Shown one piece after another: positions 16,980 through 64,000 of a DNA stretch of 64,000 nt. Origin of the DNA: Pseudomonadota bacterium (GTDB lineage: Bacteria > Pseudomonadota > Gammaproteobacteria > Steroidobacterales > Steroidobacteraceae); the NCBI GenBank assembly GCA_021838635.1, contig JAKCDC010000006.1:1-64000 (forward strand), given 5' to 3'. How positions within the stretch are numbered: position 1 is the stretch's first letter; each line of letters starts with the position of its first letter. The notes under the pieces were generated by a model. That model ran no database searches, was not told the origin of the DNA, and saw only the letters and a list, made by a program, of their open reading frames with translations. A program made the position numbers and the translations under genes.

Positions 16980-17665
16980 GGAGGCCCTCCCCGGGAACGC
17001 TGCTGTGGATGTCCGACCGTCTGTGCGAACAGTACACGCTGTCCGGCTCGCAGCGCCAGACGCGCGGCCAGGCGCGCGCGGTCGCAGTTGTGGAACCACG
17101 CCCCCAGGCCCGTGGCGGCGGCGAACAGGTAGACGTTGGCTGCGATCAGCCCAATATCGACGCAGGAGTAGGCGTGCTGCATCTGCGGGTCGCGCAGGCC
17201 CGGCTCCTGCACACCGCGCGTATGCACCAAGCGCTCCAGGTCCGCGACATAGATCAACCGCACGGGCGCACCGGCACCGCCGTCGGCTTTGGATTGCCGC
17301 CGGCTCATGGCCAGCGCCCGTAAGTCCCCGGGCACGACCAGTTCGAGACGGTGCGCCGGCGCGTCGTACCGGTAGGTCCCGTCGGCCAGCGCGACGTAGA
17401 CGTCGATCTCCTGGGAGTTGCTCGCCGAGGCGGCCGTTCGCCCAACGCCGCCGAACGGCCCCCGCGGGCGGTTCACGCCGAAGGCGGCCCAGAGCAGCTC
17501 CGAGAGCGTCTCGGCCGAGAGCTTTCGAGCGCTGAACGCACGGGTCGTCTGCCGCCGCTTAAGGGCACGGAGCAGCACATTACGCGCCGCGCTGCGCGGG
17601 CGCGGCAGCCGCCGCGCGGCCGCCGCGGCGCCTGCCGGCCGCGCCGCCGATCGTCTGGTGTGCAT
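16976..17665 (-). CDS. Nitroreductase / SagB-ThcOx-family FMN protein
   Basis: A 229-residue protein of the nitroreductase superfamily, in the subgroup that includes SagB/ThcOx-type oxidoreductases. The family landmarks are RRQTTRAFSARKLSAETLSE (FMN phosphate contact), LLWAAFGVNRP, TAASASNSQEIDVYVAL, YSCVDIGLIAANVYLFAAA and GLGAWFHN near the C-terminus. The first about 25 residues are Arg/Ala-rich and unlike the family; the true start may be later. It precedes and overlaps the SDR gene by four bases. No peptide-modification genes that would support a ThcOx role are nearby. Confidence 0.85.
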   Translation of the reverse strand: MHTRRSAARPAGAAAAARRLPRPRSAARNVLLRALKRRQTTRAFSARKLSAETLSELLWAAFGVNRPRGPFGGVGRTAASASNSQEIDVYVALADGTYRYDAPAHRLELVVPGDLRALAMSRRQSKADGGAGAPVRLIYVADLERLVHTRGVQEPGLRDPQMQHAYSCVDIGLIAANVYLFAAATGLGAWFHNCDRARLAARLALRAGQRVLFAQTVGHPQQRSRGGPP

Positions 17666-59912: not shown

Positions 59913-61283
59913 TCAGGGCGCCGCCCGCATCAGCAGACGCTCCACTGCGTCGATGTGGCGCCGGTCGGCGAGAAAGAGAATGAGATGATCATTGGCCCGG
60001 ATCCGGGTGTCATGGTGTGCCATCAGCACTTGCTCGCCACGCACGATGGCACCGATCGAGGCGCCCTCGGGCAGATCAATGTCTTGCACGGTCCGCCCCA
60101 CCACGCGCGAGCTCCGCTCCTCGCCGCGCGCCACCGCCTCGATAGCCTCAGCAGCGCCACGCCGCAGCGCGTGCACACGCACGACTTCACCGCGGCGCAC
60201 GTGCGCCAGCAGCGTCCCGATCGTAATCGTCTGCGGCGTCACCGCCACGTCGATGCTTCCGCTTTCGATCAGGTCCGCATACGAAGACGCGTTCACCAAC
60301 GCCATGACGCGGCGCGCGCCGAGCCGCTTGGCGAGCATGGCCGAGAGAATATTGGTCTCTTCCGAGTTGGTGATCGCGGCGAATACATCGGCGCTATCGA
60401 TGTTCTCCTCGATCAGCAGCTCTTCATCGGCCGCGTCTCCGGACAGCACGATGGTGTTCTCCAGTTGCTCCGAGAGCAGCTGGGCACGTCGTGAATCGTG
60501 CTCGATGAGCTTGACCTGGGCGCCGCGCTCCAGTGAGCGCGCCAGCCGCTGCCCGATATTGCCGCCACCAGCGATCAGAACACGCCGCACGCGTGAATCC
60601 TCGCGCCGCAACGCGCCGATCACGCTGTGCACGTCCTCGCTCACCGCGAGGAAGAAGACCTCATCGCCCGCTTCGATGACTGAATCGCCCTGCGGGGGAA
60701 CCAGACGACCGGCGCGGTAGATCGCCACCACACGCGTCTGGATCTGCCCGAGAAGCTCCGGCAACTCGCGCAGGCTGTGTCCGACCAACAGTCCACCCGG
60801 CTCAGAGCGTGCGCCCACGAGTCGTACTTTACCGCCGGCGAATTCGAGCAGCTGAAACGCCCCCGGATGGTGAATGAGGCGCTCGAGGTACTCGGTGACG
60901 AGCTGCTCGGGGCTGATGAACACGTCGACCGGAATCGCCGTTTCGCTGAACAGCTCCGGCCGGGAGGTGTACTCCGCGGAACGGATCCGTGCGATCTTGG
61001 TCGGCGTGCGGAACAGGCGAAAGGCGACCTCGCAGGCCATCATGTTGACTTCATCGCTATTGGTCAGCGCGACGAGCAAATCCGCCTCACCCGCGCCAGC
61101 GGCCTGCAGCACGCTCGGAAATGCCGCGTTGCCGGCCACGGTGTGCACATCGAGACGATCCTGCAGATCTCGCAACACGTCCTCGTCGTTGTCGACGACG
61201 GTGACGTCATTAGCCTCCTCGCGCGAAAAGTGGCGGGCGACCGTACGGCCGACCTGACCGGCACCGAGGATGAGAATCTTCAT
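59913..61283 (-). CDS. trkA: Trk system potassium-gating protein TrkA
   Basis: A 456-residue cytoplasmic ring protein that binds NAD(H)/ATP and gates TrkH. It has two RCK units: GAGQVGRTVARHFS (residues 7-20) with VVDNDEDVLRDLQDRLDVHTVAGNA, and IAGGGNIGQRLARSLE (about 236-251). Each unit ends in a TrkA_C domain. ATG 61283 overlaps the uvrD stop (ATGA), so K+ transport genes are coupled to the helicase gene. Confidence 0.96.
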   Translation of the reverse strand: MKILILGAGQVGRTVARHFSREEANDVTVVDNDEDVLRDLQDRLDVHTVAGNAAFPSVLQAAGAGEADLLVALTNSDEVNMMACEVAFRLFRTPTKIARIRSAEYTSRPELFSETAIPVDVFISPEQLVTEYLERLIHHPGAFQLLEFAGGKVRLVGARSEPGGLLVGHSLRELPELLGQIQTRVVAIYRAGRLVPPQGDSVIEAGDEVFFLAVSEDVHSVIGALRREDSRVRRVLIAGGGNIGQRLARSLERGAQVKLIEHDSRRAQLLSEQLENTIVLSGDAADEELLIEENIDSADVFAAITNSEETNILSAMLAKRLGARRVMALVNASSYADLIESGSIDVAVTPQTITIGTLLAHVRRGEVVRVHALRRGAAEAIEAVARGEERSSRVVGRTVQDIDLPEGASIGAIVRGEQVLMAHHDTRIRANDHLILFLADRRHIDAVERLLMRAAP

Positions 61284-64000
61284 AGGGGTTCCAGATTGGC
61301 GTACTGCATGACCAGCCACTTCAGGCCCTGGCGCTCGAAGTTGACCTGAATGCGGGCCTGCGGGCCGCTGCCCTCGAGATTGAGGATCACACCTTCGCCG
61401 AATTTGCCGTGGCGAACGCGCGCCCCAAGCCGCAAGCCGGGTATGGACGGCTCGGCGCGCGGCCGGGGTGTCCCGTAACTCCCTCGGTGCACCGGCGCGG
61501 TGTCGTACGTGGACTCACGTGAAAATCGCCCGCTCGCCACCGGCCGGGCCACCTGCAGCCGCGGCCGGATCTCCTCGATGAGCTCCTGCGGGGTCTCCTT
61601 GATGAAGCGCGAGGGCTGACTGTAACTGTCGACGCCGTGCAGCCGGCGCTGCTCGGCATACGTCAGGTACAGCTGCTTCATTGCCCGGGTCATGCCGACA
61701 TAGCACAAGCGGCGCTCTTCCTCGAGGCCGTCCAGATCGCCGATCGAGCGTTGGTGCGGGAACAGACCGTCCTCCATACCGGTGAGAAACACGACGGGAA
61801 ACTCCAGCCCCTTCGCGGTATGCAGCGTCATCATCTGCACGCAGTCTTCCCAGGCGTCGGCCTGGCCTTCCCCGGACTCGAGCGTCACATGGGCGAGGAA
61901 CGCCTCGAGCGGCGGCAGATCGGTATCCAGCGTATCGGCCTGGAAGCCGCGCGCGGCACTCACCAGCTCCTCCAGGTTCTCCACCCGCGCCTCGCCGCGG
62001 TCAGCCTTGTCGCGCTTGTGAAATTCGATCAGGCCACTCACCTCCAGCATCCGATCGACCTGCTCGTGCAACGCGAGGCCCTGCACTTCGGCGCTCAGGC
62101 GCTCGATGAGCTCGAGGAATCCGCGCAGCGCCGCCGAGGCCTTCGGCCCCAACGCATCGCCCGCGACGGTGGCCTGCGCCGCCTCCCAGAGCGGACTGCC
62201 GGCCGCACGAGCCGCGGCGCGCAGCGTATCGAGGCTCTTCGCTCCGATGCCCCGGGTCGGCAGATTCACGACCCGCTCGAAAGAGGCATCGTCACGCCGG
62301 TTGGCAATCAGGCGCAGGTACGCGAGCGCATCCTTGATTTCAGCCCGCTCGAAGAATCGCAGGCCGCCGTACACTCGGTAGGGGATGCGAGCGGCCAGAA
62401 ACATCTCTTCGAATACCCGCGACTGCGCGTTCGAGCGGTAGAGAATCGCGATGTCACGATGAACCCCGCCGTGCGCGACGTGCTCGCGGATACGCTGGCA
62501 AACAAACTCCGCCTCGTCGCGCTCGTTGAACGCAGCATAGATGCGGATCGGCTCGCCTTCATCGCCGCTGGTCCAGAGCGTCTTGCCCAGTCGGCCTGAA
62601 TTGTTGTGGATCAACCCGTTCGCGGCCGCCAGAATCGTCCCCGTCGAGCGGTAGTTCTGTTCCAGTCGGTACAGATTAATTGCCGGAAAATCCCGTCCGA
62701 ACTGCTGGAGGTTCTCCACACGCGCCCCCCGCCAGCCGTACACGGAATTGTGTGTAACAACACCGTTGGCGATGTAATTATGTGTGCGATCGACGTTCAG
62801 ATCAAAAACTTGAGTATCCGACTCTTGGTGTTCTACCCGCTCCACAATATCGAATCCGGAATTTTCAGTCGCCATGACCATTCCGGGTCGAATTGCCGCC
62901 GCTTGAACAAACGGAAGCGCGCGATCGAGGATTCTTGCCTGAAGGACGAAACGCGCACCGAGCGCTTTGCGAATGCGCCGCGCAATCTCCATCAGTTCGG
63001 CAAAATCGCTTCGTGCCGTCTCAAACCGCCAACCCTTGGATCCGGTCTTCGCTGCTCTGACGCTAAAGCCGTTCTCCTTCAGCACGGCTTTATCGACCTC
63101 GCTTGTTCCGACGATGCTGATGCAGTGCATGGGATTTGATCCCTGGCGATCACCGCACAATGTGATTACCAGGTTGCGCCGACATGAATTGCGGCTACGA
63201 GGCACATGGTGTGGGCGCTCCGGGTCTAATCCTACGTCGGCGAGAAGTCGGATCGCGGCCGACTCAGAATCTATGGATCTAAAAACCCGCGCGATATATT
63301 CCGGATCGTGCACCGGTGCGTTGCGCGCCTTCCCCTTGCGCGGCACGAACGGCAACGTCGGCAGTCCGTACTTTAGTGACGTCAGCGTCTCATCGAGACG
63401 CGCGTCACTTTCATTGGAATGGGTACGAATGACCCAGGCAGCGTCCGCGTGTTCGACGCGCGCCCGATGTTTGAAACCCACCATGGGCTTGGCTTCGGCA
63501 TTTGTATAGACCTCAGAGGTGCCGAGCCGGTACCCGATGCCTTCCTTGTGCATGAGGTATAGAACGTAGGTTCGTGGCGTCTCACCCAGGAGATATCCGG
63601 CCAGATGGGTATGCTCAGGAGTGCTGCAGATGACTCGCCCTGAGCGCATGTTCAGACGAACCATTGTTCCCTGGCGGTGGACGGAAAACTTTCGCGTGAC
63701 TGCGGCCGGCCTGAAATCGCCATTGCCGTAGCCGGAAATGATCTGCTCGCCCACCTCAATTGCTTCGATGGCTTTCTGAGAGCCATCAGCCATCGCGATC
63801 ATTGTGCCGGCAGCCAGGCACTGATCGTCATCACCAACCACGAACGGGCAACCGCCCTCGCCGGCAATCAGCTTCAGCCACGCGTACTGGATGGTGTTGG
63901 TATCCTGGAACTCATCGACCAGGATGTGACGGAAGCGCTGACGATAATGCGCCAGCAGCGCCGGCTGATCGCGCCACAGCTCGAACGCGCGCAGCAGCAG
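61280..64000 (-). CDS. uvrD: DNA helicase II (UvrD/PcrA type), intein-containing, 5' end outside window
   Basis: The C-terminal 906 codons of a superfamily-1 helicase that unwinds DNA in excision and mismatch repair. The in-window start reads LLLRAFELWRDQPALLAHY and the Walker B block VDEFQDTN. Motif III VVGDDDQ is interrupted by a 358-residue intein. The extein resumes SVYGWRGARVENL, then QNYRSTGTILAAAN (motif IV), VYGGLRFFERAEIKDALAYL, LHTAKGLEFPVVFLTGMEDG (V) and EEERRLCYVGMTRAMKQLYL (VI). A C-terminal Tudor-like end (GARVRHGKFGEGVI) follows. After splicing the helicase would be of normal composition. The frame is intact, so splicing seems necessary for function. Confidence 0.95.
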   Translation of the reverse strand: MLLRAFELWRDQPALLAHYRQRFRHILVDEFQDTNTIQYAWLKLIAGEGGCPFVVGDDDQCLAAGTMIAMADGSQKAIEAIEVGEQIISGYGNGDFRPAAVTRKFSVHRQGTMVRLNMRSGRVICSTPEHTHLAGYLLGETPRTYVLYLMHKEGIGYRLGTSEVYTNAEAKPMVGFKHRARVEHADAAWVIRTHSNESDARLDETLTSLKYGLPTLPFVPRKGKARNAPVHDPEYIARVFRSIDSESAAIRLLADVGLDPERPHHVPRSRNSCRRNLVITLCGDRQGSNPMHCISIVGTSEVDKAVLKENGFSVRAAKTGSKGWRFETARSDFAELMEIARRIRKALGARFVLQARILDRALPFVQAAAIRPGMVMATENSGFDIVERVEHQESDTQVFDLNVDRTHNYIANGVVTHNSVYGWRGARVENLQQFGRDFPAINLYRLEQNYRSTGTILAAANGLIHNNSGRLGKTLWTSGDEGEPIRIYAAFNERDEAEFVCQRIREHVAHGGVHRDIAILYRSNAQSRVFEEMFLAARIPYRVYGGLRFFERAEIKDALAYLRLIANRRDDASFERVVNLPTRGIGAKSLDTLRAAARAAGSPLWEAAQATVAGDALGPKASAALRGFLELIERLSAEVQGLALHEQVDRMLEVSGLIEFHKRDKADRGEARVENLEELVSAARGFQADTLDTDLPPLEAFLAHVTLESGEGQADAWEDCVQMMTLHTAKGLEFPVVFLTGMEDGLFPHQRSIGDLDGLEEERRLCYVGMTRAMKQLYLTYAEQRRLHGVDSYSQPSRFIKETPQELIEEIRPRLQVARPVASGRFSRESTYDTAPVHRGSYGTPRPRAEPSIPGLRLGARVRHGKFGEGVILNLEGSGPQARIQVNFERQGLKWLVMQYANLEPL
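62747..63820 (-). other. Intein inserted at the GDDDQ/S site of UvrD
   Basis: A 358-residue in-frame protein-splicing element. Block A is CLAAGTMIAM with nucleophile C1. Block B is RVICSTPEHTHL (T67, H70). Block F is FDLNVDRTHNYIANG and block G is VVTHN, ending in H357-N358 with Ser as +1 extein residue. Residues about 105-320 form an insertion that includes SLKYGLPTLPF and RRNLVITLCGDRQGS. It shows no clear LAGLIDADG or HNH motif. Two 60-base stretches near its 3' end have 27 and 29 G+C, against 40 in a nearby uvrD stretch, which suggests acquisition from elsewhere. Confidence 0.92.

Follow-up and report, generated by a model that had tools for sequence, protein, structure and literature searches.

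A class-1 intein in motif III of a bacterial UvrD helicase carries an insertion domain that recurs in phage inteins

The window, that is, the whole stretch of 64,000 nucleotides that was analysed, ends within a uvrD gene on the minus strand that is interrupted by an intein. The C-terminal extein of UvrD, including the stop codon, was placed at 61280..62746 by translation and comparison with an intein-free relative, and part of the N-terminal extein was placed at 63821..64000 by translation. The gene continues past the window edge, beyond which its start lies, and in the full contig the host frame comprises 1101 amino acids. Between the exteins, positions 62747..63820 were read on the minus strand as an open frame of 358 residues with Cys as the first residue and Thr-His-Asn as the last three (C1 to H357-N358); the plus-strand reading of the same positions contained seven stop codons. 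The frame is preceded by VVGDDDQ (63821..63841, minus strand) and followed by SVYGWRGA (62723..62746, minus strand), the Ser of which is the +1 residue. These sequences are the two extein sides of a single motif, which we take to be helicase motif III, and the precise in-frame insertion splits it after GDDDQ, in agreement with the insertion site proposed in an earlier note on this DNA. Judged from its sequence, the host protein is DNA helicase II. The intein-free relative G023 (locus L022), which is 93% identical to the C-extein studied here, scored 1137 bits against PRK11773 (NCBIfam; cut-off 965 bits) and stayed just below the cut-off of TIGR01075 uvrD (1083 vs 1144 bits). The GC content of the intein is 56.4% (61% at third positions), compared with 65.6% (82%) in the C-extein.

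To the 358-residue segment, Pfam PF14890 (Intein_splicing) matched above its cut-off (E=5.3e-12, 46.3 vs 35.8 bits), as did NCBIfam intein_Cterm, and intein_Nterm remained below (15.9 vs 24.5 bits). Together with the presence of copies at the same site in other genomes of the genus, the two matches above cut-off argue against a chance resemblance. The residues required for splicing are intact. Using the block names A, B, F and G, which we presume to apply to this intein, C1 was assigned by eye on the alignments to block A, T67-P-E-H70 to block B, D340...H347 to block F and H357-N358, followed by Ser+1, to block G. The C-terminal Thr-His-Asn and the following Ser are those of a class-1 intein. 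C1 was present in all nine complete rows of alignment A2 and, like H70, was invariant in an alignment of 17 rows, in which T67 was conserved in at least 90%. Based on profile matches and alignments, the N-terminal Hint half, with Cys1 and block B, spans residues 1-80 (63581..63820) and the C-terminal half, with blocks F and G and the final His-Asn, residues 301-358 (62747..62920). The core of an insertion domain, delimited by alignments and constraint and GIY-YIG-like by eye only, occupies residues 81-160 (63341..63580). It is followed by a second part in its long form, residues 161-300 (62921..63340); all four regions lie on the minus strand. The 18 complete copies at this site are 358 to 361 amino acids long. 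These results confirm that UvrD is interrupted, between VVGDDDQ and SVYGWRGA, by a class-1 Hint intein; the earlier note had given its boundaries and blocks A, B, F and G correctly and had left its strand, the minus strand, and its insertion domain unmentioned.

The intein is sporadically present among relatives. Among 57 other genomes of the same genus, 34 had an empty site, nine carried the intein (eight complete copies and one, in G046, interrupted by a contig end) and 14 were uncalled. The comparison with empty uvrD sites that the earlier note had suggested was thereby made, and 43 exact intein-free junctions were read in relatives: 23 from a set of loci that leaves out a 24th, L046, which the script did not parse, and 20 from all 20 further genomes, 19 in one set and that of G040 by eye. 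The empty site of G040 has Ala in place of the motif III Gly, and in G030 and G017 the Gln is followed by Ala. In a family-wide draw, the intein was found in 13 of 150 genomes, including the one studied here, and in 6 of 25 genera (E <= 1e-10). None of 38 genomes of the same order matched it, nor did any of the three genomes from other genera of the family in the same comparison, and in a phylum draw of 398 genomes searched with the whole intein at E <= 1e-15 the genome studied here stood alone. A different intein was seen in an aconitase-like gene of G026, a genome of the same genus (L019:3-1853, plus strand, E=3e-4, in a stretch with some unread letters); the uvrD gene of G026 has an empty site.

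To follow the history of the intein, its presence was mapped on a tree of the hosts, the 41 rows of which comprise 18 carriers and 23 empty sites. Eight changes were counted, at least six of them on starred branches, compared with a mean of 13.6 after shuffling. The nearest empty relatives, G023 and G020, adjoin the genome studied here and G025 on this tree, so that a gain or a loss, in either direction, was recent there. Intein and extein trees of the carriers have 8 of 15 splits in common and partly disagree, with conflict at some deep branches. For clades picked after the trees had been seen, the intein data rejected a grouping of the eight of the own genus with G033 (p-AU 0.004), which has an extein-tree support of only 83/81, and the extein data rejected G033 with G584 (p 0.001); not rejected were the own eight with G529, a clade of the intein tree, by the extein data (p-AU 0.28), and the five of g30 (p 0.07) and G584 with G595 (p 0.13) by the intein data. 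In no carrier pair was the intein pS more than 0.08 below the extein pS. The intein is thus not clearly less diverged than its host at silent sites, and no very recent transfer was seen.

Constraint on the four regions was estimated from the 18 of 153 carrier pairs with an extein pN below 0.12, which are not independent of each other. Mean pN/pS was lowest for residues 81-160 (0.127), followed by the exteins (0.131), the Hint halves (0.189 and 0.190) and residues 161-300 (0.220); on average, the core of the insertion domain is therefore under the strongest constraint within the intein. Among the pairs that include the genome studied here, the closest, that with G025, instead showed its largest pN/pS value among the four regions (0.31) in residues 81-160. 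Residues noted in the core are Y88-L-M90, R98-x-G100, R119, E123, W129, E144 and G152. In an alignment of 33 domain members, Y, M, R-x-G, E and W were invariant, and R, A, D, A, E and G were conserved in at least 90%.

Homologues of the domain were found in phage JohannJBalmer and similar phage records, an uncultured 485-kb phage and a Streptococcus phage, on plasmids of Stanieria, Providencia and Thermobispora, and in a methylase gene of the bacterial genome G459, which together with the genome studied here gave the only matches among the 398 genomes of the phylum draw at E <= 1e-4. Outside the phylum, Actinomycetota above all are a likely home of relatives. Parsing covered 34 of 35 viral loci, all but L132, which is the contig of L050, and yielded 23 distinct domains. 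All 23 could be read as parts of inteins with both ends, and the phage, plasmid and bacterial copies that were read out likewise appear to lie in inteins. In at least six of the 23 viral inteins (L133, L137, L139, L141, L145, L158) a residue other than His precedes the terminal Asn. By eye, the site of 11 of the 23 viral copies immediately follows GDxxQ in a UvrD-like helicase; three copies lie elsewhere in that motif, two near motif II, four in DNA-methylase-like genes and three in other genes. DNA-methylase inteins with the same insertion domain and a HEP|CLYGWK site were observed on the Providencia plasmid (L126:3001-3858, plus strand, with no listed gene over the stretch) and in the Streptococcus phage (L127:2501-3355, plus strand). 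A viral helicase-like frame, L050:1144-4785 on the plus strand, apparently contains two inteins by eye, one after TGFGK and one bearing the domain.

Next, the family of the insertion domain was addressed. Neither LAGLIDADG nor HNH families matched the intein (for LAGLIDADG at E <= 1 in Pfam), nine related inteins or the 33 domain members. Pfam gave no consistent family for the 33 members; eight families, no GIY-YIG family among them, matched one member each (best E 0.0097) and were taken as chance matches. Two profiles of the domain found no PDB sequence at E <= 10; the intein as query gave weak PDB matches from E 0.003 upward (designed ankyrin proteins, intein chains and a few others) and no match in PHROGs at E <= 1. 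A relationship to GIY-YIG nucleases, suspected by eye, was not supported by Pfam, hhalign or hmmsearch. In hhalign, 22 of 100 shuffles reached the observed score of 11.03, and the reversed profile surpassed it; the positive control (T5orf172 against UvrC-type domains) failed, with probabilities of 1.5 and 2.3%, so that this test has little power. In hmmsearch, 4 of 33, 2 of 13, 0 of 14 and, for the UvrC type, 1 of 2 scored above the 95th percentile of shuffled sequences, with 2 of 2 for the positive control. Crude propensities, a pattern obtained without a control, follow the order strand-strand-helix-strand-helix. No name for the domain was found in the literature searched, which had most subscription journals outside its scope, and it is not named in the parts covered of PMC5874633, PMC7765530, PMC1564403, PMC11855218, PMC8966425, PMC11162368, PMC8594841 and PMC5050341. 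We suspect a nuclease because the domain recurs in inteins inserted at unrelated sites and has conserved charged residues. The intein is best regarded as one of a family that lies outside those named in the libraries searched and probably bears an endonuclease.

Two further inteins were observed in the same genome. One lies in a gene that looks like a dCTP deaminase (L217, contig C10, 63899-64795, plus strand) and has an HNH-like stretch by eye; the other lies in a gene that reads as DnaB (L219/L220, contig C6, 16129-17340, minus strand) and has LAGLIDADG-like stretches by eye. Three inteins, each with a different kind of insertion, thus seem to be present in this one genome. A tRNA-His gene was recorded at 17256-17342 on the minus strand, with its anticodon given as atg.

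Taken together, these results make it likely that the class-1 intein in motif III of UvrD has a homing endonuclease as its middle domain and is copied into empty sites. Translation would produce the intein as part of UvrD, following the motif III Gln; as its anatomy suggests, the two Hint halves would then assemble, remove the 358-residue intein and ligate the exteins into an uninterrupted helicase II. The middle domain would cut the intein-free uvrD site, upon which the intein would be copied in. Because motif III is split by the intein, it is reasonable to infer that the UvrD precursor is inactive before splicing. This presumed inactivity, the position in a catalytic motif and purifying selection across the whole intein would also suit a domesticated intein, whose conditional splicing in response to redox state, metals or DNA damage gates UvrD activity, and excerpts of PMC6195587 and PMC7360933 describe conditional splicing for mycobacterial DnaB inteins. 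However, the intein is absent from the 34 empty sites among the 57 genomes of the genus, and on average the insertion domain is more constrained than the splicing halves. The switch on DNA repair proposed in the earlier note thus gained no support from the distribution, and we regard such domestication as improbable; the patchy occurrence and the partial disagreement of the trees are more in keeping with a mobile element than with a conserved switch on repair.

Somewhat less improbable, though still unlikely, is a fixed and immobile intein that is inherited vertically with losses and whose insertion is no nuclease and serves, as a structural or DNA-binding domain, in folding or splicing. The splits common to both carrier trees, the narrow length range of the 18 complete copies and the lack of a pS signal of recent transfer are in line with this explanation. 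On the other hand, the same domain occurs in inteins of unrelated sites and hosts, as a mobility module does, and some deep branches of the intein and host trees conflict. That the segment is an ordinary helicase insertion devoid of a Hint fold, the case that would have spoken against the earlier note, or an assembly artefact found no support and can practically be dismissed given the Intein_splicing match above cut-off, the 17 more complete copies outside the genome studied here and the empty sites read in relatives. Within the preferred reading, a mobile intein with a homing endonuclease, we tentatively suggest, as a possibility somewhat short of even, that the inserted domain represents a previously unnamed homing-endonuclease class with a GIY-YIG-like core, which is confined to inteins, spreads mainly through phage helicases and methylases and has established itself in the cellular uvrD of this bacterial family. 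Inteins in repair helicases are already known, and the phage relatives are annotated; the potential interest lies in the insertion domain, a recurring intein module without a name in the libraries searched. Should it prove to be a nuclease, inteins would gain a further homing-endonuclease class, and phages would be indicated as a reservoir for the invasion of a cellular repair gene.

Homing endonucleases comprise the H-N-H, His-Cys box, GIY-YIG and LAGLIDADG families, of which LAGLIDADG is the commonest in inteins according to the part covered of PMC7765530. Inteins with LAGLIDADG or HNH domains likewise have Hint halves around an inserted domain, but the UvrD insertion matches neither family. 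By eye, it shares with GIY-YIG domains (T5orf172, MUG113, UvrC) the order strand-strand-helix-strand-helix, R-x-G after strand 2, Arg in helix 1 and Glu in helix 2, and is closest in look to the T5orf172/MUG113 branch, although there is no significant sequence similarity; in the part covered of a 2006 survey (PMC1564403), GIY-YIG is given as not found in inteins. The best NCBIfam match over residues 1-358 was NF038136, an intein-containing Rv2578c-family radical SAM protein (E=4.8e-11), which scored 42.2 bits (cut-off 700) and may reflect the insertion or the Hint halves only. UvrD/Rep/PcrA is listed among intein-bearing bacterial proteins in excerpts of PMC5874633, in which these inteins lie at the P-loop, whereas the present one lies in motif III. 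Inteins have been identified in BASEL phages (PMC8594841, part covered). In Escherichia phage JohannJBalmer (MZ501084, bas62_0080), the GenBank record of which already annotates a helicase intein, the intein of a UvrD/Rep-family helicase lies at the same motif III site (GDEFQ|CIYQFRG), carries the same insertion domain and is spanned by tblastn over residues 1-358 of the UvrD intein. It differs in its identity of about 25%, its Cys at +1 instead of Ser, its length of 346 amino acids and its host, a phage helicase and not a cellular UvrD. The intein in a UvrD-like helicase of L149, a 371-kb viral contig, is 341 amino acids long and 32% identical over the whole intein; it lies at the same site (GDVAQ|...HN|SIYGWRGA), is likewise followed by Ser+1 and, by eye, also has some of the insertion's second half in common with the UvrD intein.
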